From Selaginella tamariscina (lineage: Eukaryota > Streptophyta > Lycopodiopsida > Selaginellales > Selaginellaceae): a DNA stretch of 64,000 bases. The notes beneath the pieces were generated by a model. It saw only the letters and a program-made list of their open reading frames with translations, did no database searches and had not been told where the DNA came from. The position numbers and the translations under genes are program-made. Positions within the stretch are counted from its first letter, which is position 1. Each line of letters opens with the position of its first letter. Location: contig PUQB01000349.1 of assembly GCA_003024785.1 (NCBI GenBank), positions 62,001 through 126,000 on the forward strand, in the 5' to 3' direction. Positions 2,005 through 62,604 of the stretch are shown one piece after another.

Positions 2005-3658
2005 CTAAAAAGCCAAATCGTTAAGGAAAGGATTGCTACTGCTTCCAAGCAACTGACGGTACTGATCTGGCATGATCAACGGTTGCACTTGAGGCATTGT
2101 GAAGCATATTCCTCACGATCAACGGTGTCAGTGTCTGTTTCCTCAGTAGAATTCTTCCTGGATATTAAAATTAATGATCTCTCTCTCAGACACACAATAA
2201 TATTACACATGCATATATGTATATGCGTGTATATATAATTAAACATAAATATACAATTATAGATTACATTAGTTGATACACATACCTTGCTAAGTAAGAT
2301 TGAACGGCTTCAGTAAATCCTTCTTTATAAGTAAATAAAAGACCACGGAAAGGTTTGCCTTCTATATTTGCCTCGAGAGTATATCCGTAGGGGAAAACAC
2401 TGGTTAACTTGCCTTCGAATATTCTCTCTGCCGCCGGTTTCACATTATACGGGGCAGGAATCTCTTTGTCAGCTGCAAACAAAATAATGCTAAATAATAT
2501 TAATATTAAACATTATTTCGAGATTTAAAATTAACTAAACTTTATTTTAGTATGTATGTGCGTATAATGTGTAGAAGATACATATGGAGGTTTCCATTCA
2601 ATATAACTAGTATGAGAGAGAGGGAGGGAATTATGTATTTCACATAAAATTCTATATAGCAAATACAATAGATTAGCGCATTCACATGATTAAGTAGACA
2701 AGGAATGTATAATTTCCTTTACAAAAACACGTATACAAGTGCTTTCACTAAGTATAATGGATTGTGTGTGTGTGTGTGTGTGTGACATATAAGCGAAATT
2801 GTATTATAGACACAATAAATAATGAGATTTATATATATACATGGATATAGAAATGCACACCAGAAAGATTAAATACAAACAGTAGGTATAATGTGTAGAT
2901 ATATACATATGATGTATAAATTTTAGATAGTGAATAGAATGGTATGTAATAAAAAAATAAAGATACATATAAATAATCTACCTGGAATATGCTTTGATTT
3001 CTTCCAGTTGGGCAAATCTTCTTCCTCACCCTCAGAAAACTAATGTCAATGTAAGAAGGCGGAGGCTTCGAAGCTCTCTTTTTCGTATCCCTTGTAGGAA
3101 CTTCTTTCTGCTCTGGTCTATCTGCAAATATAACATACACGCGTTGTGTGCGTACATGCGTCTGCGTTTGTGTGTGTGTGTAAAAATTCTTAAAATAAAC
3201 AGCACATAATAATATAGCGTCTGTAATTACAGTGTTATATATACTAACTATTGATACGTTAATATTCATATAAACGCAAACCTGAGTGTAAATAGTACAT
3301 ATCCGCTAAAGCATCTAACTTCTCATTGCATCCTCCATGAAAAGCAAGAATCCCTGTGCTTATACATAAGTAAATATTTTTACACATTAATGTTAGCATA
3401 TATACATTAAGGTGTGTGTATGTATACCTTTGTCTGGATCAACGAGTTCCGTTGCCAGTGAGAAACGACGGATGGAAGATTTGCCGTCATAGATGCCTTT
3501 GTCCATACTCCTGTTACTAAAAACAAACTGCTTTATCAAGTTAAAATTTGGTTATACACACACATACACGTAACAAACTACGTGTACATGTAAATATATG
3601 ATATAACTTCATATATACATACATACAATATGCACATAAAAGCTTATATATATATTAT

Positions 3659-7982: not shown

Positions 7983-10900
7983 GCTTTTTACATTGTAAAC
8001 AGTTATTACATGGGTAGTTATGTCAGACATTGTTAATCAATGCTAGTATAAATTTTATTTTACATATAGATCTCATTGTGTATCATGTACAATTCTATAT
8101 TTATTCACTTACAAATGTTTGTAGTAAGTTAAACAATTTGAATTATTAGTTCCAATCTGATGTGGTGAACATTACAAGTATATCCTTATATATAAATGGT
8201 ATTATTAGAAATTTAGATTGTAAATTCTTAAAAAACATAAAAATTATAAAACTAAGTATTTGCAATAATTTCTATAGTAAATTGGAGAATAGAAATATAT
8301 GTTTTACCTATACTATACATAAATTATAACATGTTAAGATGTTTAAAACAAAGAAAGAGTATATATCTTTAGCCAAATAACTTAACAATGTCAAAATTAT
8401 TAAGAGGAAGTTTGATGAAAAAGCATGATGATGTTCATTTTTTTTAGGCATGTAAGCATTGTAGTTATTAAATGGATAATGAAGAGTTTTTGGAACACCA
8501 AACTTTAAGTTAATTAAAAACAATATATAATGTGAAGTAGACTTAACAACTTTTGTGACACTTATACTAGACAATTTTATGAATAAATTTTTTTTAATAT
8601 GTATCGAAATGCTATTATCATGAGAGAGTCCTTTCAAATTTAATGAACTTATAGAAATCGTCATAATAATCTTTGTTGTAGTAGGAGTGGTTTCTCTCGA
8701 TATAATTTCATTAAAACATTTTACGAGTCCATATGTTTATTAAATTGTATTATTCAAATAATGAAATAGAGAAATGAAATGAGGTTTTTGAAATTTGATA
8801 TAATAAGAAGAATATAAATCATAGTTAAAGGGTTAATAATCTTTTGTATGTTTAATAGAAGGTTAATTATTTTGTTAATATTTAACTTTGAAGGGCAACT
8901 TAAAATATATTTGTATGTGTAACTTTGTAATTTTAAATAGCAAACTTTAATGTTTATTAAGTAATTTATTTAACCAAGTGGTTCCCATAAAAAGACATTT
9001 GAAATCTTGATATTAATTCTTTATTGAATTTTGATCAAATTTAATTCATATTTAATCTATTAAAATAATGTATCACAATTTTATAAAAATCTTCCTAAGA
9101 GTTTTAATATGGTATCTATATTCCAAAATTTATTTTGTATGTTTTTTATGCATCCCAAATCTTAAATATTTAAAGTTTTTTTTTAATAAAATAATAAAAG
9201 AACATAAGTACCACTTACAATCTTTTAAATTTACTATAGTATCAAAATACTTCAAATCAATATTAATGTTAGAATTATATGAAGAAATAAATAAGCATTT
9301 TAGATTTTAATTTTTAAGTTCTAAATCATATGATTATATAGTTATGATAAATCTTAACACATGGTAGTAACATTTAATAAATAAGAAAAATTAGTACTTA
9401 GAGTAAATGGTTTGGATCGTGTACATCCATAAGGTTAGAAATTAACTTTTAAATATATAAATTTTTAAACGTGTGATCTCACTCTTTAAATTCAAAATTT
9501 AAAAAATTTAAATGTCCTACCCTTTGGGTTATTGTTTAAAGTTTTAAAATATTTTGGGTTTCCCTCCTTAAGTACGGTTATGTATTACATGTGAACTCTC
9601 ATTGTTTTGATTATTATTAAAGAGTGAACCCCTTGTGTGTTTTTCTTTTTTGTTTTCATTAATAAATTAGTTTTTTTGTTTATTAATATTATGTTTTTGA
9701 TTTCGACCTTCATTTAAAATTCTTCTTATAAGTTTAATCAAACTATCAAGATCGATTTTACAAAACTTACAAAATATTAAATATAAATAATTAATAAATT
9801 TTTGTTTAGAATTTTAATAATTAGTATGACAAGATGAACACTTAAAAAATAAAATGTAAAATAAGTAAATTGTGAAATCATTTATAAGATCCTGAAATTA
9901 AAGAAGTTAATATGATAATACTAGGTCATAATTTTATAAATTTGTTTAATGTTTTATATATTTTAATTATTATTTTATTATTCATTTAAAAGTGAAATTG
10001 ATGTATTCACTTTTTAGAAACACAATAAAGCATAATTTATTTTTTTAAATTTTTGAAACAAAATTTAGAATTATTAAAGAATTTTAAAGTTTTTTCCATG
10101 TATGCACAATCGAGTAATTTATAATAAAAGTTATAAAATGAAAACTAAAAGATTTTGTAAGTGGAGAAGATGTTTAATGGTTTTAACTATTATTTTAAAG
10201 AGATTGAATTAGTTTAAATATTAATAATAACAAAAGCATTATAAGAAACATTAACTTTAGTATAATTCATACAAATCAATAAATCAATGATATAAAGTCT
10301 TTCTCATGATTAATCAATGCTTTTTTATAACATTGTTGGTTGTGTTATGTATCTTATAATTACTAGTAGATAAGATATAACTTTTGTTATTATTTTTAAT
10401 TGTGTTAATTCATCTTTGATGAGAATTAATTATATAAATTAAAAGAACATGTTAATCCTTCTTTAATAAAACTTTAATTTAATAGTGATCATGATATTTC
10501 ATACTTTTTATGTTGTACCTGAAAGAAAATAAAGTAATGATTTAGAATTTTAAGTGATTTCCAGTGTAAAAAAAATAAAAAAAAATGCAAAAGTGTAGTG
10601 AATGTTATAAACATTTTTAATCTTTAAAGGTTTAACACATTTTTATAAGAAAAACATTTAATTTAATCTCTTAAAGGGGTTTTAATCACACTTTTTATTT
10701 GTAATACCTTGTAATTATTATCAAAAAGAAATAAATCTAAAAGGGTCATAAAAAGAATAATGCATTTATATTATTTATATAAAAACTTTTAAATGATGAA
10801 CCTATTGAATACACTCAACAAAGGTCCAAATTAAAAACTTAAAATTACTTATATCATTTGATTTTATGTTTTAAGTTCAACCTCTTTAATACTATAAATT

Positions 10901-13900
10901 TATATAGCATTAAAAAATTTATCATTTAAAACTGTTCAAGAAAATAATCACTTATATGACATATGTCACAAATATAAATAACTAACTATTTTAAATTTAA
11001 CTTTTTAAATTTATTCAGGATAACCATAAGTATATAGTATATCAAGTAAGAGTAATTAACTATTTCAAATTCATTTGTAATTATTTTAGGTACTATTGAG
11101 GGGCAACTTTTTAAGTTTTATTAAGAAAATTGGTACATATACTTGTCAAATAATAAAATTATCTCATAACACAAAGTTGATGAACACTTATATATCAGTA
11201 CTTTGATATAAAACCATCCCATAATAGATTGTATATCATGTTTAGTCCATGACATATATATTAATATTATAATTTTCTTTATAATAATTAATTTATATAT
11301 CTTAAGTATTTAAACAAGTCTTGGTACGAGCATTTAAACAAGTCTTGAAACACCTTTAATATAATTATGAACTTATTTTATAAATGGAAGAACATTACTT
11401 TACTTTTGATTTACTTAATATAATAATTTTATTTATTTATGTCTTATTATATCTTTCATTTTATTTATGTTATGAAAGCCTTTTTTTATTTAATGGTTTT
11501 TCATTCAAATTCTATATACACAATTTAAATGATATGGAATTTACATTTATATATTTTTAAGACTATTCCATTAACTTCTTGATTAGTAAACTCATGACAT
11601 TTAATAAGTCAAATGTAATTAAGTTTTTAAATAAGATGATTGTCGGTTTATATAAATTATCACGAGCCTTCACATTTCAACTTAATGTTTTAAAGCAAGT
11701 TTAACACTAAATTTAATTAAGGATTTTCATTACACTTTTTTTTGTTTATTAACTTTTCCTCATGGTGTCTAACATATTTAACATATTTATTTGTATTCTC
11801 ATTTTTAAGGTTATTAAGGTTACCATGTCTCATAATATTCAATTGTCTAAGATATATAATAAACTCGTTTAATGTCGTTTTAAAACTTATTTAATATCAT
11901 AATTTTACTATGACTTTTCTTTTTACCATAGTGATTATTAACTAGTGTAATTATTATTAAAAAACATTTAAATATAGTGAAAAAAAATCCTACTTAATAC
12001 ACTTGAGTTTAATCAGTTGTCATATTTAATTTAAAAAACCTTTTTTTTTCTTTAAAAGGAATATAATAAGTTCATACTTTTTAAGGGTTAATTTACATTT
12101 AACATTTTTGTTTTCACTCGTATGCATATGTTTACAAAATTTCATTAGAAATAATTAATGCCTTACTTTCATTACTTAATTTATCAAGTTAAAATTAACA
12201 CACACTTGATTAATTATATGATTTAATTTTCAAAAGTGAACATTTATATAAGTATAAGTCAAGTGTATGTTCTTATGAATTTAGTTCTTGATGTTAATTT
12301 TCATTTAAAATTGAGGGTTTTAATTATCTTTTCATAACTGACATATAATGAATCATACGTGTAACACCATGAACTGTTTTACATTATTTTTATTATGAAT
12401 TTTATAATAAAAGATTAATGATAATAGATATGTAAAATAAGCCACATTATTTTTTCAACTAATACCTTTGTAAAAGATTAATAATCTTTATAATAGTTTT
12501 TCATCATTTTATGAACTTTTTATTTCATTTTATTTTGAAGAGTTTAAATTAAATCTTTATTATAACAAATTCATTTTGAAATTGTTTCTTTAAACTTATA
12601 ATTTAAAAAACTTATTTTTTAGTTTTTATTTTATCCTTTCATCTTTTTTTTAATTCCTTAATTTTCTTGACTTTGATCTTTAATTTGAAATTGGAAAATG
12701 AAGAGAAAATCATTAAACATATTAACAAACTATTATAGTAAGAATTCAAATTCAATGTAATTAAAAGAGACTTGAAATAACCTTTCCCACTACAATTTAA
12801 TAAACTTTTATTATGCAACTCTATTAATTCAATAAAAAATAATTTGAGTTAAATAAAATAAACTAAAAATTTATGATGTAAATTAAAATGACATAACTTA
12901 CATTATTATCTTTATTATAAATGTTAACCAAGAACCCCATAAGAAAATTAAAGAGTCAATTAAAGATCAATTATATGTTGTTATTTAAACTCAAATTAAA
13001 AAGTTAACAAGTGAAATTATTATTGTTCAAAGCAGATTTAAATGAATTAATTTATATAAATTAATATTAATCATTACTAAATCAATATTATTATTTTAAC
13101 CATGTCCAACACTAGTCTTATAAGTTACCAACTCAATAAATGAATTCATTTTAAACTTTATTGAACTCATTTAAAAATTATTTAGCAATTAATGATAACA
13201 ACTCATTAAGTAGCATTGTTGTGTAAGATTTTAAGAAAATGTTCTTTAAGTTTTTATTAATTTTGATAGATTCATCAATAAATTATTATTGATATTTTGA
13301 TAAATTCATCAATAAATTATTAATATGAACTAAGGTATTATTAATTAATAATTTATAATAATACTTGTTATTATTATTGGTCGAGGTGTCTTCAAACTAT
13401 TTAAATCTGCCATATAAAGAAATAACATCAATATATTTTGATTTTCACTCGTGCAATCTTAAACTTAAAATTAAAAGAGTGTATTCTTTCATTTTTAAAC
13501 CATAATATTATTTATATAGTTTAATTTTAAATACTATTTTAATTGACTATATATATATTACATTATACTAAAATCACATTGATAATTTTAAAATTAAATT
13601 TAGAAATTATAAATTTAAGTATTCTAATTTTTATTTTAAAATCAGCAAATATTTGATTTTCAAATTAAATCCTTTAATATTAAAATTATAAACTTATAAT
13701 TTAAACTTGAAACTATTTTTATTTTCTCCAAAATCTCTCTTTAATAATATTTTATATATATAAACCACTAAGGCATATTTACTTATAAATCTTATACAAA
13801 AAATATTTAAAATCCTAAGGAAGCATCTCAAACGCTATGGAAGAATTCAAGTTTAAATTTTGTGAGTTGTAAGCCTCAAACTTCAATATATACATTTATA

Positions 13901-30711: not shown

Positions 30712-32450
30712 TTAGCGAGAAACTTTCTGACAAAAATATGCTCCATGATCATCCTTGAGAATAGTTATGAGACTATTCTTCTGAAGATCGTCGGTGTCTA
30801 GATATACGTTCACACATTGGTTACAGTCTTCAACAAACTTTATGTAGACACTTATAGTGCAGTAAGTGCCTTCCAGAGGTTGCATGCGCACACTTTCGTC
30901 TGGTGGAATGGTCATCCTTGGCCTTTCCAAGCATCTCATATTCTCATGAAGCTCGATAGTCTTACCGGTAGCATTACGAATAATACAATCTTCATCGAGT
31001 GTGTCAGGCGCAATCCTAACTGGCTTGGCGAGTCCAATCTTGAGGTCCCTTGTTCGAAACACAATCTCATCAAATGTAGGGCGTTTATCAGGATTTGTAT
31101 CCCAACACTCTTTTATCAACTCTCCCAGCTTGTAAGGAACAATATCTGGCAACTCGGGCCTCCATGAGTCCTCTGTCGATCCCTTGGGTGCTATTGGAGA
31201 TCTACCAGTTAAAACCTCGTAACATGTCATCCCAAAACTGTAAACATCAGCTTTAAATGAATATTCAGTACCTTCACCATCTCCTGAACGAACTTCAGGT
31301 GCTCTCCAGTACGAGGTGCCAACCTTAGCCGTGAGAATTGTAGAGCCTTCACGAACCACTCTTGCTGTGCCGAGGTCGCCCAGTTTCACATGAAGGCGAC
31401 TTTCATCAAGGTTGGTTTCAGAAGCATTCAGATCCACCAGGATATTCCGAGCTTTCAAGTCCCTGTGCATTATCTTCTTTGAGTGTAAGTACCGCATCGC
31501 ATCAGCCACCTGGTATATCACATCCACAGTGAGCTTGATTCTCTTCAAGTCGACGGGTTGATTCGACTTGTTAATAAAGTCCCGCAGGTTGTCTGGGTGC
31601 ATAAGCTCCATAACCAGCCCGAATCTGTCAGTTTGCACGGTCTCTGGATATTCAACATAGCATATAGCTCTCACAATGTTCGGATGCTGCAACTTGAAGT
31701 GAACAACTGCCTCTTCATGAAGCACACTCGAAACTTGCACTTCTTGCAAGCAAATTTCTCACCGTACAGAGCTACCTCAACCACCCTTCCGTAGTTCCCT
31801 TCTCCAATCCCCTTTCCTTCGCGTATGTCCTCGTACGCAACCTTTGGGCAATACTCTGGTAGCTGACTTCGGGAGTGGTCCAAGTGTAAGAGCTTATGAT
31901 CCAACATCTGGAGTAGCAGTCCGGCACGCTTGCATAGTACAGTTTGCCTGGCCTCCTCGAAACACTCGTCCAAGTAAGGAATTAACAACTGTTGATCCAT
32001 ATGTCCAGCAAGGAAGAAATCATCTTGAACATAATCGTCTAACAAGGATTGTAATGTGACCTTCCATGCCTTCTCCCACTTACCTTGGAAGTTGTTTTTC
32101 GAGATAGAATCGAAAGACAACAACAAATCCATGGCATTTTTCCTGATTTTGAGACCCAGTGTAGCAATATTTACTGTACTGAGGGACTTGAGTGGTGATT
32201 TGGTCCTGCAACAACTTAGCAGCTCCATAGCTTGACTGGCCAAGTACTTGAGCTCTGGAACATTTAGATCTTCTTGATTGTTCACCTTCTTTAGAAAAAC
32301 TTCAACATGACTATAGATCTGAACTAGAAAAATGCCCTGCCATTTGTATATGTGGAATTCAGATTTACTGCCTTTGGATATTTGAGAAATTTTATGTCTA
32401 ATGTCTGAACCATGGCTCCTTACAAAAATCCCCATCCTCTTAATGTTCAT
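30712..32450 (-). CDS. plant protein kinase with N-terminal helical and C-terminal extra domain, one frameshift
   Basis: Intronless minus-strand gene of about 580 codons. Residues 1 to about 205 are mostly helical and I do not recognise the domain. Kinase domain from about residue 210: glycine loop GKGIGEGNYGRV, the lysine in FACKK, then after a one-base loss near 31740 HEEAVVHFKLQHPNIV, the catalytic loop IMHRDLKARN, DLG in place of DFG (KLGDLGTARV), the APE-like WRAPEV and SFGMTCYEVLTG. Lysine, HRD aspartate and DLG aspartate are present, so catalysis looks possible. About 100 residues follow the kinase (DTLDEDCIIRNATGKTIELH through FCQKVSR), a beta-rich tail. The kinase is of tyrosine-kinase-like (Raf/MLK) plant type; substrate unknown. 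An upstream non-coding exon cannot be excluded. Confidence 0.82.
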
Positions 32451-37455: not shown

Positions 37456-37785
37456 TTGTGAGCATAAAAGCTCCGACCTAATTGTTGTACAATCAGTTAC
37501 TATCAACACCAGTCATTCTACGATTATTCTTGTTCCTTGTTCTTGTCTTGTTCTTGTCTTACTCTTTGCCTCCTGCTCTGTCTTGCTCCGGATCCTGTCT
37601 TGTTCCTGGATCCGGTCCTGCTCCTTCTGCTGCTCCGGATCCTATCCTGATCCTGTCCTGCTCCTGGATCCGTCCTGTTCCTGTCTTTATTCCTAGTTCC
37701 TGTCCTGCTCTCGGTCCTGTTCCTGAGTCAAGCCTTCCTGTCTTGGAATCCTACTCCTTCCTGGTTCCTGGATCGTGGCTTGACA
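37456..37785 (+). repeat. partial 5' LTR of A
   Basis: Matches the last two thirds of the 3' LTR at 42716-43280 and ends GTGGCTTGACA. Contains the TATA-like ATAAAAG (37464-37470) and the stretch GTTACTATCAA that pairs with the primer site. The downstream part is a run of CCTGT/TCCTG words. Confidence 0.92.
37464..37506 (+). promoter_or_regulatory. LTR core promoter of A and predicted self-priming 5' end
   Basis: ATAAAAG at 37464. The first base of AGTTACTATCAA is at 37495, 31 bases from the start of the TATA-like box, so transcription should begin at or next to it. The same 31-base distance holds in the 5' LTRs of B and C. Confidence 0.65.
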
Positions 37786-37787
37786 GT

Positions 37788-37798
37788 TTGATAGTAAC
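37788..37798 (+). promoter_or_regulatory. primer-binding site of A, complementary to its own LTR
   Basis: Two bases after the LTR end, TTGATAGTAAC is the reverse complement of GTTACTATCAA at 37496-37506. No TGG-initiated tRNA 3'-end complement is found at this position. Confidence 0.65.
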
Positions 37799-42715: not shown

Positions 42716-43280
42716 TGTCACAACCCGATACAGGATACAGGATTCCGGATACAGGATGCAAGATTTCGGATACAGGATACGGGTTACAGGATATGCCTGC
42801 AGGATATTCCTACAGGATATACCTATAGGATATTCCTATAGGATATGCCTATAGGATATGCTACAGGATATGCCTAGAGGATAAGGGACACTATTCTTAG
42901 CTCATGACTAGATTAGACTCATGACTAGATTAGCTTGGAGTTGTGAGCATAAAAGCTCCGACCTAATTGTTGTACAATCAGTTACTATCAACACCAGTCA
43001 TTCTACGATTATTCTTGTTCTTGTCTTGTCTTGTTCTTGTCTTACTCTTTGCCTCCTCTCCTGTCTTGCTCCGGATCCTGTCTTGTTCCTGTTTGTTCCT
43101 GGATCCGTCCTGCGCTTCCTGTCTTGCTCCCGGATCCTATCCTGATCCTGTCCTGCTCTGGATCCGTCCTGTTCCTGTCTTATTCCTAGTTCCTGTCCTG
43201 CTCTCGGTCCTGTTCCTGAGTCAAGCCTTCCTGCTCTCGGAATCCTACTCACTTTCTGGTTCCTGGATCGTGGCTTAACA
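42716..43280 (+). repeat. 3' LTR of A
   Basis: Begins TGTCACAACCCGATACAGG directly after the purine tract AGGGAGGAGGTGC (42703-42715) and ends GTGGCTTAACA. The first 180 bases are dense in ACAGGATA words; the last 250 are dense in CCTGTCTTG/CCTGTTCCT words. Confidence 0.93.
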
Positions 43281-43847
43281 GCTTCTTCTTCTTTTTCTGT
43301 GTGTTTGGATGCAGAACATTTGGTATTGTAGTAGTCGCCGAAATCTAAACGACAACATTATTGATTCAATCATTCAATCCCAAAAACCCCCTCAAAATTT
43401 GACATGGCATCCATCATTATTTATCACCAACCAGGCTTTGTCTAACTCTAGAGGGTCGACCTAGATCAGCTTCATCCATCTCCTCATTTTGGCCTTTATG
43501 ATACCTCTCTGCCTCAGGCTCTTGCTTATCGTATTGAACCCTAGCTTCACACTCAAAGAATATGCTTGGAATATTCCTAATACAAAGTTGGAAACCCACA
43601 CAAGTTGTTCACCCCACACATCAGCTTGAACCAGCATAAGACTTTCAAACATACCTAAAATCTCATGCCAACTCACTGAGTAAGTGTCTCTAAAGATTAA
43701 TAATTCTCATGATCAAACTCTCTATGCAGAATACAGACATGTCAACTGAAAGTGATAGAATAAAAAATTTAGAGTTATCTATACATTGAAACACCTTATG
43801 ACTTTAGGCAAACCTACTGACCGCTGAGAACTTACTCTGATACCAAC
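43281..43847 (-). pseudogene. family D element: primer site and start of gag
   Basis: On the minus strand the D LTR end at 43848 is followed by TGGTATCAGAG (43845-43835), the classic complement of the 3' end of initiator tRNA-Met. A degraded gag follows (frame 43676-43461, MSWHEILGMFESLMLVQADV) and reaches an acidic/lysine run next to element A. After undoing the inversion it continues into the D gag at 52979. Stops and frame changes are present. Confidence 0.75.
43835..43845 (-). promoter_or_regulatory. primer-binding site for initiator tRNA-Met (family D)
   Basis: TGGTATCAGAG two bases inside the LTR end ...CTCTGACA. This is the usual primer site of plant Ty3/gypsy and Ty1/copia elements (established knowledge) and contrasts with copies A-C. 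Confidence 0.85.
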
Positions 43848-44861
43848 TGTCAGAGTTTTTATCTGGTTCCACAAAGGCAGCTTGCCCCTGGAATCCCCTC
43901 TTTGGAAAGCCCCACAAAATCTAGTAAAGTAACCCATATTAGGAACCCATCCCTTAGGAACTTAAGCCCCTAACTGACTAAGTTCATGAACGAGGCTCAC
44001 CTTGTGAATCAAGATACATAGGCCAGCCAAGCTATGAGTATCGTTCCTAGCTTGGCATGGTTGAGGAGGCCAGAGCAAGGTCCCAACCACTAGTTCTATG
44101 AAACGTGAACTCGGGCAATGCCTTTGAGCTTGAGGTTTTTGGACTAAGGAATTTGATAACTCCTTAAAAGTGACGTACCCGTCATAAAGGCAAGATCCTA
44201 CCCACAATAAGGTAGGGTGGCACAACAAAGGGTTGTGCCTTGACGACTACCTTATTTATGTAACAAAGCGCCCCCCTCCTGTTTTCCTAAATGAGTAAGT
44301 GGGATGGCACGAAAATGCCAACCCTTAATCAAAATGAGATGCCTTAACTTAACCCTAAACCTAACCCCTAGGGGGGGATTAAGGCATGAGGTTAGGTCAA
44401 TCCCTAGGGGTGTCCCTAACACTATACTTTGTGAAAAACCTACCTTGGAACGTCAAACCATGGGAGAGTTTTCTAGAAGGTAAGTGTTACCTTCGCCTAA
44501 GTTTCTCGAGATATCTAGTGATAACTAGTTGGACTACCATTAAATACCTAAGTGCACTAAGCGGGGTTGTTTTCTCACAACATCTAGGGTTTGTTACATA
44601 ATTTAGTGGGTAACAACAATCAATGTTAGAGTTTTAACCCGAAGGGCTAACACGTGACTGCCAAGTGCCCATTCGCGTCATCACCTTGTAGAGCAACGCT
44701 AAGTCTTCCAAGATAACCCTAAGAGTCTGACTCAGAGGCCCAATTTAGGTAGAAGACTTAAAGTCTTACCTTAAATCCTCTAGAATGACCATCCCTTAAA
44801 CCCTAGAGGATAACCCGAGTACTTTAGGATCCGTCCCAGTAGACCTAGACATGCTCATGCC

Positions 44862-45390
44862 TGTCAAGCCACGATCCAGGAAACAGGAAGTGAGCAGTTC
44901 CAAGAGTAGGAAGGCTTGACTCAGGAGCATGATAGGAAACAAGACAGGAACTAGGAACTCAGGAGCAAGACAAGACGCAGGACATGATCTAGGAGTAGGA
45001 CAGGAACAGGACTGGATCTAGGAGCGAGATAGGAATAGGACAGGATCCAGGAGCGAGACAAGAGCAGGAGGCAAAGGAACAAGACAAGACAAGAACAAGA
45101 ATGATTGTAGAAAGACTGGTGTTGATAGTAACTGATTGTACAACAATTAGGTCGGAGCTTTTATGCTCACAACTCCAAGCTAATTTAGTCATGAGTCTAA
45201 TCTAGTCATGAGCTAAGAATAATGTCCCTTATCCTCTAGGCATATCCTGTAGCATATCCTATAGGCATATCCTATAGGTATATCCTGTAGGAATATCTCT
45301 GCAGGCATATCCTATAACCCGTATCCTGTATCCGAAATCCTGCATCATGTATCCTGTATTCGGAATCATGTATCCTGTATCGGTGTGACA
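44862..45390 (-). repeat. 3' LTR of B
   Basis: 529 bp; on the minus strand follows the purine tract AGGGAGGAGGTGC and ends CTTGACA at 44862. Differs from the 5' LTR by scattered substitutions and short indels in the CCTGT/ACAGGAT arrays. Confidence 0.93.
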
Positions 45391-50439: not shown

Positions 50440-50451
50440 AGTTACTATCAA
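50440..50451 (-). promoter_or_regulatory. primer-binding site of B, complementary to its own LTR
   Basis: TTGATAGTAACT on the minus strand, two bases after the 5' LTR end. It is the exact complement, over 12 bases, of AGTTACTATCAA in the LTR (minus strand 50731-50720), which itself starts 31 bases after ATAAAAG (50762). Confidence 0.7.
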
Positions 50452-50453
50452 AC

Positions 50454-51000
50454 TGTCAAGCCACGATCCAGGAAACAGAAGTGAGCAGGATTCCAAGAGT
50501 GAAGGCTTGACTCAGGAGCAAGATAGGAAACAAGACAGGAACTAGGAACTCAGGAGCAAGACAAGACGCAGGACAAGATCCAGGAGTAGGACAGGAACAG
50601 GACTGGATCTAGGAGCGAGATAAGAACAGACAAGATCAGGAGCGAGACAAGAGCAGGACAAAGGAGCAAGACAAGATAAGAACAAGACAAGAACAAGAAT
50701 GATCGTAGAAAGACTGGTGTTGATAGTAACTGATTGTACAACAATTAGGTCGGAGCTTTTATGCTCACAACTCCAAGCTAATCTAGTCATGAGTCTAATT
50801 TAGTCATGAGCTAAGAATAGTGTCCCTTATCCTCTAGGCATATCCTGTAGCATATCCTATAGGCATATCCTATAGGAATATCCTATAGGTATATCCTGTA
50901 GGAATATCCTGCAGGCATATCCTGTAACCCGTATCCTGTATCCGAAATCCTGCATCCTGTATCCTATCCGGAAACCTGTATCCTGTATCGGGTTGTGACA
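50454..51000 (-). repeat. 5' LTR of B
   Basis: 547 bp; on the minus strand begins TGTCACAACCCGATACAGG at 51000 and ends CTTGACA at 50454. ACAGGATA array first, then ATAAAAG, then CCTGT-rich tail. Confidence 0.93.
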
Positions 51001-56288: not shown

Positions 56289-56934
56289 TGTCACGACCCG
56301 ATACAGAATACAGGATTCCGGATACAGGACATGGGTTGCAGGACTTTCCTACAGGATTCCGGATACAGGATATGGGTTGCAGGATTTTCCTACAGGATAT
56401 TCCTACCAGGATTCCGGACACAGGATTCGGTTGCAGGATATTCCTACAGGATATGCCACAGGATATGCCTAGAGGATAAGGGACATGTGGACTCATCTTA
56501 GCCTTGCATGCATGCAAACACTTTTGCATGCATGCAACCACTTTTGCATGCATGCCTAGATTAGCTCTTGGAGTTGTGAGCATAAAAGCTCCGACCTAAT
56601 TGTTGTACAAGCAGTTACTATCAACACCAGTCTTACTACGATCAATCTCGTCTTGTCTTGTTCTGTCTTGTTTCCTATCCTGTTCCTGTCTCGCTCCTGT
56701 TTCCTGTCCTGCTCTTGGATCCTGCCTGCTCCGGGATCCTGTCCTGCTTCTGTCTTGTTCCTGGATTGTCCTGTTCTTCCTGTCTTACTCCCGGATCCTA
56801 TCCTGATCCTGTCTTGCTCCTAGATCCGTCTGTTTATTCCTAGTTCCTGTCCTGCTCTCTGTCCTGTTCCTGAGTCAAGCCTTCGTGTCCTTGGAATCCT
56901 GTTCTCTTCCTAGTTCCTGGATCGTGGCTTGACA
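56289..56934 (+). repeat. 5' LTR of C
   Basis: 646 bp, TGTCACGACCCGATACAG to CTTGACA. Unlike A and B it carries three GCATGCATGC blocks spaced by ACACTTTT/CCACTTTT at about 56508-56555. ATAAAAG at 56582. Confidence 0.94.
56582..56624 (+). promoter_or_regulatory. LTR core promoter of C and predicted self-priming 5' end
   Basis: ATAAAAG at 56582; AGTTACTATCAA at 56613-56624, again 31 bases downstream. In the 3' LTR of C the box has lost CAT (GAGTAAAAG), so the two LTRs differ at the promoter. Confidence 0.65.
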
Positions 56935-56936
56935 GT

Positions 56937-56946
56937 TTGATAGTAA
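56937..56946 (+). promoter_or_regulatory. primer-binding site of C, complementary to its own LTR
   Basis: TTGATAGTAA, two bases after the LTR end, pairs with TTACTATCAA of the LTR (10 bases). The next base differs from A and B, shortening the pairing. Confidence 0.6.
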
Positions 56947-57022
56947 TTCATAGTTCTCCGTTTTCAGCTACCTTTTTCTTGATTCCTTTCCTTCATTTTC
57001 CTCCTTTTTTCTTTCCTAGATC

Positions 57023-60000
57023 ATGGCTGATTTTGAGCGTTTTCAACACGAGCACCAAATGCTACTTCATGAGCTGGCCACTTTGCGCCAAGTGGTCACC
57101 GACCTGCAAGGTTCCACCACTGCGGCACATGCAGCTGCTGATGCATCCTCCAAGGCTGCTGCGCAGGCTCTCTCCCAGGCATCGGTGGTTCCTCTTCATC
57201 AAACTTTTCTTCGGAGCCGAAGGTTAGCATGCCAGAGAAGTTCAGTGGTAATCGTGCCGATTTCCAAGGTTTCCTGAATCAGATCCGGCTCTTGATCCGT
57301 ATGCAACCACGGCGCTACTCGACTGATGCTCAAAAGGTGGGTCTTTTGGCATCCTTACTAAGTGGATCTCCACGGGCTTGGGTTGCCCCTTGCTGGAGCG
57401 TGACGATCCATTGATGGAAGACTTTGAAGGTTTCGTGGCTGCCTTTGAAGTTTTTGGAGATCCTGATAAGTACCGTTCTGCATGCACGAAGTTACGGAAG
57501 CTCACTCAAGGATCCCGACCAGCTTCCGTCTATGCATCCGAATTTCAGCAACTTTGCACGAACATTCCATGGGACGAGACTGCATTGATCGAACACTTCC
57601 GTTTTGGGTTGGGACGACGTGAAGGACCTTCTCCTTACGTTACCGGATGCCCAAACATTAGCGGAGATCATGCAACAAGCTGTTCGTTGCGACAACCGTT
57701 TGTTCGAGCGTCGTCAGGAAAGATCCCGTCAACAGTTCCTGCAAACCAATCCTGCAGCTGTGGTACATGTTCCTGCACCACCTTCTGGAGTAGTTCCTAT
57801 GGAGGTTGAGAAATCCAAGCGTGGCTCTCTTTCCGCTGCCGAGAAGCAACGTCGTCGCAGTGAGAACCTGTGCTTGTATTGTGGTGGAGCAGGACAAGGT
57901 GGCAGATTGTCCTATTAAAGCCAGGAACTTCAAGACGCGTGAAGTCGAAGCTGAAGTTCAGTCGGAAAACTCCAATGTCCACTTCGTCTAGGAGCCGCGA
58001 AGTTGGACGTAGGTGCAGGCTCCATTGGTGCTGCTCATACCATCCCGTCACTTAAGTTTCCTGTACACATTCATCTTAATAATCGAGAGCTCATGGAGTT
58101 TGCCTTGTTAGACACTGGTGCAAATGCATGCTTCATGGATGACACGTTTGCAACTCAACATGGCATTTCGGTGGTGAAGTTGAAGCGTGCAGTTCCTGTA
58201 GAGGTGGCCGATGGGCGTCTAATTGCTTCTGGTGCAGTTACCCATGCTACCGAACCTCTCTCCTGCAGGTATGGCACATTCAACTGTTCAATTTCCTTCA
58301 ACTTGATCAAGACTCGGTCGACTCCCATCATTTTGGGCATGCCATGGTTCGTTGTTGCAAATCCGCAGATCGACTGGAGGTCTAGGACGCTCACGTTTTC
58401 CTCTCCAACTGCTAGGATCAATCCTGTACCTTCCTGTGCAGGATACATCCTTAGTATCTGAGGCAGTACAAGCTACAGGATTGACCGTGCCTGTTCCTGT
58501 ACCAGTGTTGAAGACTCCTCCTCGACAGGATTCACCTCATATCAGTTCCTCAGCATATCGCAGGCTCTCTCCACTCCTGTAAGTGCGGTGTCCTGTACAG
58601 GGTTCTTCCAATCCTGTATCAGTGTCGAAGGTTCCTCCTCAACAGGATCCACCTCCTGTTGATTCGTCAGCACATTCGCAGGCTTCTTCCACTCTTGCGC
58701 AACCACGGACTCCTGTACAGGATTCTTCCAATCCTGTACACTCATCACACACCACACAGGTTTTTTCCAATCCTGCTTCTTTCTGTTACCCTGCTTCTGT
58801 TCCATCCCCAAGATCCTTCCTCTTTTTCAGTCACAGCTCCCTCCTTCTCCTCTCCGAGTTCTTACCACTACCATGCATGAACTCGCCACTGATCCTGCTC
58901 CCTTCCACCTTTTTGCCTTTCAAGTAACTCCTACGTCCTCTTCTACCTTTCCTGTATCCGACTCCCCTGTTTTTTCTCCTTCTCCTTCTCCTTCTCCTCC
59001 TTCTTCCCTACCATCCAAGTACCACGACTTTAAGGACGTTTTTGACAAGCACAAGGCTGCAGTTCTTCCTGTTCACAGGTCCTACGACTGTCCTATTGAT
59101 CTTGCGGAAGGAAAGACTCCACCATTCGGACCGATTTATGCATTGTCACCCACAGAGTTGGAGGTTCTTCGTCAGTACATGAGGACAACTTGGCATCCGG
59201 CTTCATTCGTCACTCAAAGTCCCCTGCAGGAGCTCCTATCTTCTTTGTCAAGAAGAAGGATGGGAGTTTACGTTTGGTTGTGGACTACAGGGGTTTGAAT
59301 CAAGTCACCATTCGGAATCGGTACCCGTTGCCATTGATCCCGGAACTTCTCGATCGGCTGCGAGGAGCAAAGGTGTTCACGAAGATCGACTTACGAGGAG
59401 CCTACAACCTTGTACGGATTCGTCCCGGCGATGAGTGGAAGACTGCCTTTCGTACAAGGTATGGACATTTTGAGTACACGGTAATGCCTTTCGGCCTTAC
59501 CAATGCCCCAGCTGTGTTCCAACACATGGTGAACGACATTTTCCGTGACTTCTTGGACCAGTTTGTGGTGATCTACCTCGACGACATCTTGATTTTCTCC
59601 AAGGACCAGGCGGCACATGACAAGCATGTACGACTAGTTTTAGAGCGGCTTCGCGAGCATGGCCTGTACGCGAAGTTGGAGAAGTGTTTTTTCGATAGGG
59701 ATTCGGTGGAGTTCTTGGGCTACATGTCTCTCCTGCTGGCGTTTCCATGGACATGCACAAGGTGAAGACCATCGTGGAGTGGGAGAGGCCCAAGTCGGTA
59801 CGAGATGTACAATGTTTCCTTGGCTTTGCAAACTTCTACAGGCGGTTCATACAGGACTTCTCCAAGCGTGTACTTCCACTCACAGAACTCACCAAGCGCA
59901 CAGGACTTTTCTCTTGGTCCGACAAGGCGGAACACGCGTTCACAACACTCAAGGACATTTTCACGACAGCTCCGATTTTAGCACATCCTGACCCTTCTCA

Positions 60001-61951
60001 TCCTTTCTTCATTGAAGCAGATGCCTCGGATTTTGCAGTAGGATCCGTGCTATCGCAAGTTGGAGAGGACAAGTTGCTTCATCCTGTAGCTTTTCACTCT
60101 CGTAAGTTCCTGTCGGCGGAGATCAACTACGAGATTCATGACAAGGAACTCAAGGCCATTGTGGATTCGTTTGAGGAGTGGCGGCATTTCCTGGAAGGTG
60201 CTGCACATCCTGTACAAGTTCTTACGGATCACAAGAACCTGGAGTACTTTCAAACGGCTCGGGTCCTCAGTCGGCGACAGGCTAGGTGGGCAGAGTTCCT
60301 ATCACGTTTTGACTTCGTCATCGTCTACAGGCCCGGCTTTCGGAATGGCAAGGCGGACGCATTGTCTAGGCGCTCTTACCTTGCACCAAGCCCGGGCGAT
60401 CCTGCATTTGACGGTCAAAGGCAAGTGTTGTTGGGTCCTGATCGTTTCCGGCTTGCGGCATTGCAGGTTCATCAGGCTCCAGCAAATTCAACACTCCTAC
60501 AGGACGTCCGTTCGCAGTTGGCTACAGACGACTTGGCAAAGAATGTGTTCTCACACATTCATCCTGACGTTGCAAGTTCCTCTTCCTCCAGTTCCCGTCC
60601 AGACTACAACCTGTTCACCATACAGGATGGACTCCTGTACCGGGAAGGTCTCCTGTACGTTCCTGTTGGTATTTCCAGGACTCGCGTGGTACAGGATTGT
60701 CATGATACCCCGGCTACAGGACATTTTGGTGTGGCCAAGACAGTGGAGTTGGTGACTCGCAACTATTGGTGGCCGGGTTGCGAGGTTTTGTGGAGAGGTT
60801 TGTACGGAGTTGTGACACTTGTAGCAGGTCGAAGATGCCTCATCATGCACCCTCTGGTCTTCTTCGTCCTCTTCCTGTTCCGTCTGCTCCTTGGAGATCC
60901 ATTTCTATGGATTTCCTCACAGATCTTCCTCCTTCTCGTGGATTTGATGCAGTTCTTGTGGTTGTTGACCGTTTCACCAAGCAGGCTCATTTCCTACCCT
61001 GCAACAAGACAGCTACAGGTCAGACAACTGCCGAGTTGGTGATCCGCGAGGTGTTCCGACATCATGGTCTTCCTGAGAGCATTGTTTCCGATCGAGGTCC
61101 ACAATTCATGTCCAAGTTTTGGCGAGAGCTTTTCGGAGTCTACAGGTCAAAGCGGATCTTTCTTCAGGATATCACCCACAAACCGATGGGCAGTCCGAAC
61201 GCACAATTCAGACCTTAGAACAGTATCTTCGTTGCTTCATCAGTTACCAGCAGGACAACTGGTTGGACCTCCTTCCAATGGCGGAGTTGCCTACTACAGG
61301 ACAAACACCCTTCTTTGCTCTTACAGGCCACCATCCACGTTTTGACTTTGCTCCTCCGCTTCTCCTTCTTCCGCTCCTGCAGTACAGGATCGTCTTCAGC
61401 ATCTTCGGCAGGTACAGGATGATCTCCAGGTTCATCTTCAACAGGCACAGGAACGATACAAGCATCATGCTGATGCTCACCGTCAGCCGGCACCTGCATA
61501 CAAGATTGGTGATCTCGTGTGGCTTCTTCGTCGACACATTCGCACCAACAGGCCTTCTTCTAAGTTGGATTTTCAACGATTGGGCCCTTATAGGATCGTG
61601 GCGGAGGTAAATCCTGTAGCTTTCCGACTCGAGTTACCATCCACGTGAAACTTCATCCTGTGTTTCACACCTCTTTGTTGGAGCGTATCATCCTTCTTCT
61701 CTTCCCGGTCGTGTTTCTTCCTCCCCTCCTGTGGTCATTGACACGGAACCTGAGTACGAAGTCACAGCCATCCTTGACTCTCGTCTTCATCGTCACCAAC
61801 TCCAATACTTGGTGGATTGGAAAGGGTACCTGCCTACTGATCGCACTTGGGAACCTGCATCCAACTTACTCCATGCTTCTTCCAAGGTTGCTGCCTTCCA
61901 TCGGCATTATCCTGCTAAACCAGGTCCAAGACTCGTGGAACTCGTCTTTAG
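57023..61951 (+). pseudogene. gag-pol polyprotein of C, frameshifted, with the longest intact pol frame
   Basis: ATG at 57023 (MADFERFQHEHQMLLHELAT); stop TAG at 59 bases-scale before the LTR, 61949-61951. Gag with coiled-coil start and zinc knuckle near 57869-57920 (one base lost); protease DTG at 58111; Pro/Ser linker about 58440-59000; reverse transcriptase frame 59190-59765 with YLDDILIF at 59574; a 431-codon frame (59747-61042) runs from the end of reverse transcriptase through RNase H into integrase; integrase DDE region continues in another frame (60766-61218, [27 protein letters not shown]); chromodomain about 61745-61925. Frameshifts near 57390, 57610, 57895, 59180, 59725, 60775 and 61190. 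Confidence 0.88.
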
Positions 61952-61962
61952 GGAGGAGGTGC
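61949..61962 (+). promoter_or_regulatory. polypurine tract of C
   Basis: TAGGGAGGAGGTGC directly before the 3' LTR; the same tract precedes the 3' LTRs of A (42703-42715) and B (minus strand, 45403-45391). It primes plus-strand DNA synthesis. Confidence 0.85.
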
Positions 61963-62604
61963 TGTGACCCGATACAGAATACAGGATTCCGGATACAGGA
62001 CATGGGTTGCAGGACTTTCCTACAGGATTCCGGATACAGGATATGGGTTGCAGGATTTTCCTACAGGATATTCCTACCAGGATTCCGGACACAGGATTCG
62101 GTTGCAGGATATTCCTACAGGATATGCCACAGGATATGCCTAGAGGATAAGGGACATGTGGACTCATCTTAGCCTCTGCATGCATGCAACACTTTTGCAT
62201 GCATGCAACCACTTTTGCATGCATGCCTAGATTAGCTCTTGGAGTTGTGAGTAAAAGCTCCGACCTAATTGTTGTACAATCAGTTACTATCAACACCAGT
62301 CTTACTACGATCAATCTCGTCTTGTCTTGTTCCTGTCTTGTTTCCTATCCTGTTCCTGTCTCGCTCCTGTTTCCTGTCCTGCTCTTGGATCCTGGCCTGC
62401 TCCGGGATCCTGTCCTGCTTCTGTCTTTTCCTGGATCTTGTCCTGTTCTTTCCTGTCTTACTCCCGATCCTATCTGATCATGTCTTGCTCCTAGATCCGT
62501 CCTGTTCCTATTCCTAGTTCCTGTCCTGCTCTGTCCTGTTCCTGAGTCAAGCCTTCGTGTTTGGAATCCTGTTCTCTTCCTAGTTCCTGGATCGTGGCTT
62601 GACA
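61963..62604 (+). repeat. 3' LTR of C
   Basis: 642 bp. Starts TGTGACCCGATACAG (three bases shorter than the 5' copy), with the same GCATGC blocks at about 62178-62226. Confidence 0.94.

Follow-up and report, generated by a model that had tools for sequence, protein, structure and literature searches.

Probable self-priming by the RNA 5' end in a chromodomain Ty3/gypsy retrotransposon family of Selaginella tamariscina

In Tf1, the first 11 bases of the RNA are described as pairing with the primer site, with a cut after base 11 (PMC7175516), and the element is reported to require the primer duplex together with two flanking duplexes (PMC10085805). For plants, Neumann et al. (2019) predicted self-priming in most Tcn1-clade elements of moss and club-moss, which they described as lacking tRNA primer sites, and set the priming of this clade apart from that of other plant chromoviruses (PMC6317226). 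For SM-Tcn1 of Selaginella moellendorffii, Novikova et al. (2010) described a T-rich leader with neither a tRNA site nor self-priming (PMC2864245). Self-priming in plant Tcn1-clade chromoviruses was thus already known, as a prediction, and the novelty for plants that an earlier note on the present DNA had implied is not supported in view of the 2019 paper (PMC6317226).

Retrotransposon copies in the window and their primer sites

The window is the whole stretch of DNA analysed here, 64,000 nucleotides of a Selaginella tamariscina contig. It holds three copies, A, B and C, of a high-copy Ty3/gypsy chromodomain retrotransposon family, and a further element, D. Copy C (6316 bp, plus strand) has a 646-bp 5' LTR at 56289..56934 that starts TGTCACGACC and ends CTTGACA, and a 3' LTR at 61963..62604; the two are identical at 611 of 637 aligned columns (95.9%). 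Copy B (6139 bp, minus strand) has its 5' LTR at 50454..51000 and its 3' LTR at 44862..45390. Because the LTR pairs are only 93.1% (B) and 95.9% (C) identical, neither copy is brand new. Target site duplications of 5 bp flank both on either side (GGCAT in B, CCCAG in C), which fixes the LTR end as ..TTGACA and makes the GT that follows a true 2-nt spacer. For copy A (plus strand; 3' LTR 42716..43280) a correction is needed: BLAST against the other LTRs showed that its 5' LTR (37456..37785) is missing the U3 part.

The pol ORF of copy C (59747..61042, plus) carries RNase H-like and integrase zinc-binding domains (Pfam PF17917, PF17919, PF17921), and its best solved-structure match is Ty3 Gag-Pol (7q5b, E 5.7e-32). 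RNase H-like domains were found in the ORFs of all three copies and a reverse transcriptase in A; the reverse transcriptase match in B is weak and below the Pfam cut-off, and its integrase zinc-binding domain is below that cut-off too. A frame encoding a chromodomain with the aromatic residues Y..W..Y (EYEV..VDWKGY..TWEP, read within the ORF at 61620..61967, plus) and a polypurine tract, AGGGAGGAGG (61950..61959, plus), lie ahead of the 3' LTR of C. By eye, EYEV and DWKGY in A and C fit the Y24/W45/Y48 rule as given in PMC3350952; this CHD_I aromatic cage is common to Selaginella Galahad and is therefore not exclusive to the Tcn1 clade. Eight PF00385 loci were fetched besides one on contig C1246 (L101): L124 and L128, 93-95% identical to the chromodomain region of C, group with it, five (L100, L122, L123, L125 and L127) group with family D, and L126 is a relative of the family E described below. 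The C1246 locus, which matched none of the other PF00385 loci fetched, may be a host chromodomain gene. One scan of viral_contigs found no relatives. Elsewhere in the window, a minus-strand ORF at 30712-31749 with a protein kinase domain and DUF7748 is probably a host gene, and positions 8001-12000 are markedly AT-rich, with a GC content of 20% where the remaining 4-kb steps have 26-49%.

The earlier note had placed, just inside the 5' LTR of each copy, a stretch complementary to part of the LTR itself, over 11 bases in A, 12 in B and 10 in C. These coordinates hold, with the refinement that pairing begins 2 nt inside the LTR end: the leader reads GT and then TTGATAGTAA, from the start of which 10 to 12 nt complement AGTTACTATCAA within the LTR. 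In copy C, the GT spacer occupies 56935..56936 and the primer binding site TTGATAGTAATT 56937..56948, complementary to the putative self-primer AGTTACTATCAA at 56613..56624 (all plus) by an unbroken run of 10 Watson-Crick pairs, which a G-U and an A-T pair follow. The corresponding primer stretch and site are at 50720..50731 (AGTTACTATCAA) and 50440..50451 in copy B (minus, 12 of 12 paired), and at 37495..37506 and 37788..37798 in copy A (plus, 11 pairs). The distance of 31 nt from the TATA-like ATAAAAG (56582..56588, plus, in C) to the A of AGTTAC was confirmed in all three copies when counted start to start from the first A of the box; counted from the end of ATAAAAG it is 24 nt. When the primer sites were shuffled 5000 times, with position within the LTR unconstrained, a match at least as long arose anywhere in the LTR in 0 (A), 2 (B) and 6 (C) shuffles, and other offsets in the three leaders gave matches of at most 6 nt. 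The TGG that tRNA 3' ends require is absent from the primer sites of A, B and C, in agreement with the earlier reading that no tRNA 3' end starting TGG matches there.

Element D provides the contrast within the window. Its primer site, TGGTATCAGAGT (43834..43845, minus), lies 2 nt past TGACA behind a GT spacer and is of a type that we take to be tRNA-Met. The D-type genome copy L099 has the spacer AT followed by TGGTATCGAAGC. The exact D-type junction, TGACAGTTGGTATCAGAG, occurs at only three sites in the assembly, so the window copy and L099 alone carry the comparison with D, whose LTR end is read here without a target duplication to fix it. On this reading, the last tRNA base at D would pair at the third position inward from the LTR end, like A12 of the proposed self-primer. 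The LTR of family D (window 43281-44623; also L099 and L100) contains a long G tract, like the Selaginella Galahad LTRs described in PMC3350952.

Covariation of primer stretch and primer site across the genome

The source assembly (300.7 Mb, 1391 contigs) served as the search space. The 19-mer AGTTACTATCAACACCAGT occurs there at 3345 sites and the exact LTR/primer-site junction TGACAGTTTGATAGTAACT at 1592, against none for either reversed control. So that neither pairing partner guided the choice of copies, we sampled by gag start (1495 sites), using the first 70 among 100 listed; one was ended by a contig end. Both regions were obtained in 68 of the 70 (L045 and L098 had no anchors), and 67 were scored, L064 having lost its primer stretch. 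Full 12/12 pairing was present in 56 of the 67, and the remaining 11 kept 8 to 11 Watson-Crick pairs, four departing by G-U only and seven with at least one broken pair. GACA and GT meet at the LTR end and spacer in 61 of 68 genome copies. The primer match recurs at the same place across the genome-wide sample, with the reservation that the copies are kin and cannot each be counted as a separate event.

Covariation of the LTR with the primer site, which the earlier note had proposed as a check, was found at one compensated position within the family and at five between families. The position within the family is the seventh, where the LTR and site bases are T-A in 63 of the 67 copies, A-T in three and A/A in one, the last being the single copy changed on the LTR side only (Fisher p 8e-5, kinship ignored); put differently, the LTR variant occurs in one of the 64 scored copies with the usual primer-site base. 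In the whole assembly, 64 primer sites have T at position 7 and 184 sites carry the LTR 19-mer with A there. The relative position could be checked for 40 of the 64 T-variant sites, those on contigs fully covered among 100 listed of the 184, and at 30 of these 40 the exact LTR-A 19-mer precedes the site by 100-700 nt in the same orientation. Twenty of the 64 were also fetched: the LTR base is A in 14, T in two and accompanied by an extra base in one, and the other three gave no usable anchor; in L103, one of these three, the LTR-A 19-mer lies 505 nt upstream. The copy with the extra base is L115 (G000:C462:179385-179768), whose LTR primer stretch reads AGTTACTAATCAA. The double change may be a single event inherited by a subfamily.

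The between-family changes come from family E. In the LTR of locus L126, a diverged chromodomain relative, TATAAA is followed some 30 nt later by AGAATCATTCAACACCAGTC; the R start of the family is AGAATCATTCAA, from which, on the assumption of self-priming, the primer site TTGAATGATTCT was predicted before any E primer site had been read. (By eye, L126, at G000:C771:42500-43900, minus, also contains at its end several partial chromodomain-coding copies arranged head to tail before and around its 3' LTR.) The R-start 20-mer occurs at 451 sites in the assembly, and our sample took, from 100 listed of the 451, the upstream member of 18 pairs that share a strand and are separated by 4.3-6.5 kb. 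The predicted site was exact in 16 of these 18 copies, 2 nt past an LTR end that reads GTGACA in 15 of the 16 and GTAACA in one. It matched at 11 of 12 positions in L142 and was absent from L143, which has other sequence at the LTR end; L143 (G000:C448:412092-412392) joins an E LTR end through GTT to an inverted LTR start, as in a rearranged or nested copy. A TATAAA or ATAAAA stands 30 nt ahead of R in 16 of the 18 copies and 28 nt ahead in one, and no TATA-like box was found ahead of R in the remaining one. The E LTR/primer-site junction has 270 sites in the assembly and its control none. The E and A/B/C primers differ at five of 12 positions, every one compensated at the sites, and the primer of one family would pair with the site of the other at only 7 of 12. 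The proteins of A, B and C are 40-79% identical, by stretch, to those of one E copy.

Further junctions were also surveyed. A candidate primer family, TGACAGTTTGASNNNNNCT, was rejected since its five sites, against six in the reversed control, are no more than chance; by their letters four resemble A/B/C variants and the fifth is an orphan, two of these sites having been fetched. The string AGNNNNNNTCAACACCAGTCTTS has 528 sites, and the 100 listed all belong to the A/B/C or the E type, with a single base altered in two of them. The orphan junction TGACA-GT-TTGAGTGCTTCT at L148 (G000:C1015:565660-566120), with only a 6-nt complement upstream, may represent a third self-primed family that has decayed, or may be due to chance.

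Predicted folds of the leader RNA

Folding of the leader, likewise suggested in the earlier note, returned the primer pairing in both the minimum-energy and the centroid predictions for A, B and C. At least 10 of the 12 primer pairs are present in the minimum-energy fold of 63 of 68 A/B/C leaders and all 17 E leaders, and in none of either set (0/68 and 0/17) after one shuffle per site. The folding energy of the whole leader stands out clearly from shuffles in A only (z -3.5, against -1.3 in B and -1.2 in C).

In both families, with unrelated letters, the U5 end can also pair with R just past the primer. The commonest such pair is CTACGATC/GATCGTGG in A/B/C (31 of the 45 copies whose primer and site are exact) and CGGCCTTGTGT/GCACAAGGTCG in E (10 of 15 copies). 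Of 225 shuffles for A/B/C, 4% came up to the mean duplex score, and of 75 for E, none did. In copy C, the R segment CTACGATC lies at 56636..56643 and its partner GATCGTGG at 56920-56927, within the U5 end at 56920..56933 (plus). The same end supplies the 3' arm GGCTTGAC (56926-56933) of a predicted U5 stem whose 5' arm is GTCAAGCC (56874..56881, plus); both arms are identical in 51 of the 67 A/B/C copies that have them, among 70. Since this stem and the U5-R duplex overlap by two bases in A/B/C, they may be alternatives. A third duplex 3' of the primer site, as in Tf1, did not rise above shuffles in A/B/C or in E.

Together with the comparison with D, the base that follows the site points to a primer of the 12 nt from A+1. 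Directly behind the 12-nt site, A/B/C copies have G in 59, C in eight and A in one of 68, and E copies have G in eight, A in seven and C in two of 17. The G that is frequent in A/B/C would allow the C preceding A+1 to form a 13th pair in many copies, which leaves E as the stronger ground for the 12-nt limit.

A self-priming reading and its alternatives

We consider it very probable that the A, B and C family starts reverse transcription by self-priming with its own RNA 5' end, a reading already put forward in the earlier note and now supported by the missing TGG, the LTR/site covariation and the predicted leader folds. From the TATA spacing and the pairing boundary, the RNA would start at the A of AGTTACTATCAA, some 31 nt past the TATA-like box. 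Its nucleotides 1-12 would fold back onto the site just inside the 5' LTR. Support for this fold would come from a second duplex of the U5 end with R or, alternatively, from the U5 stem. RNase H would then cut after nucleotide 12, beside an unpaired C13, to leave a 12-nt RNA primer. Synthesis would begin 2 nt inside the LTR end, as for the tRNA of D, and the extra GT would presumably be trimmed by integrase.

An unusual tRNA fragment, internal or half, might prime instead and match R incidentally, and half-tRNA primers are indeed described for some plant copia lineages (PMC6317226). We regard this as very unlikely here, as a tRNA would keep the primer site fixed regardless of the LTR, whereas the two covary within and between families and the match sits at the presumed transcript start. 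Long-range pairing at the 5' ends of retroelement RNAs has other roles too, and the complementarity might accordingly serve packaging, dimerisation or 5'-end shielding, with priming a separate matter; yet it fills the usual place of a primer site, with the 2-nt offset that the tRNA-type site of D also shows, and the leaders of A, B and C have no TGG-type site at the LTR end, which makes this account highly improbable. That the match arose once by chance and was merely inherited would suit the close relationship of the copies, most of which, among those scored, share identical 12-mers, but the E primer site was found where it had been predicted, with five compensated differences, and a double change exists within the A/B/C family as well; we give this account almost no credence.

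Under self-priming, primer and site may evolve as one unit, the primer being copied into the primer site of the next generation, an extension that we put forward tentatively and hold to be somewhat doubtful. If it is true, a mutation in RNA nucleotides 1-12 would be transferred to the primer site in roughly one round of replication, and families could switch their whole priming code, as in A/B/C vs E and in the A-T subfamily, with the half-changed copies L035, L107 and L110 as possible intermediates.

Novelty lies here in how strong the evidence is and in the existence of a second family, in a plant group for which self-priming had been predicted. More than 1000 primer-site junctions, two families whose primers differ, and changes compensated on both sides, all in one genome, turn the prediction of plant gypsy self-priming into a well-supported inference and offer a natural system for studying how primer and site stay matched. 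In the papers listed for this subject, titles and the opening parts of abstracts contained no report of this primer/site covariation.

Among described elements, Tf1 and Tf2 of Schizosaccharomyces pombe resemble the A/B/C family in that the first bases of the mRNA complement the primer site and, in Tf1, in a further duplex that joins a stretch next to the primer site to a part of the LTR lying downstream of the primer (as described in PMC10085805). The Tf1 primer is given as 11 nt (PMC7175516) where we infer 12, and of the three Tf1 duplexes the primer duplex and one flanking duplex have predicted counterparts here, the third not rising above shuffles. With the Tf1/sushi group at large, the family shares a chromodomain at the integrase C-terminus and a presumed RNA 5' end, the R start, that complements the primer site. 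TAR-lineage elements such as Houba and Osr-1 are likewise proposed to self-prime in plants, but they belong to Ty1/copia and not to gypsy (PMC6317226). The Galadriel/Galahad chromoviruses of Selaginella, which element D resembles, are like A/B/C plant chromoviruses with an aromatic-cage (CHD_I) chromodomain; they differ in the tRNA-Met primer site described for them (PMC3350952), which A, B and C lack. SM-Tcn1 is of similar size (5.7 kb, vs 6.1 kb for B and 6.3 kb for C) and its T-rich leader recurs, by eye, in A, B and C, but the self-priming proposed here was not found there according to its description (PMC2864245). The Y/W/Y chromodomain, the 5-bp duplications and the lack of a tRNA primer site are features of the Tcn1 clade as described (PMC6317226, PMC2864245, PMC3350952), and on these shared features the A/B/C family may be placed beside that clade.
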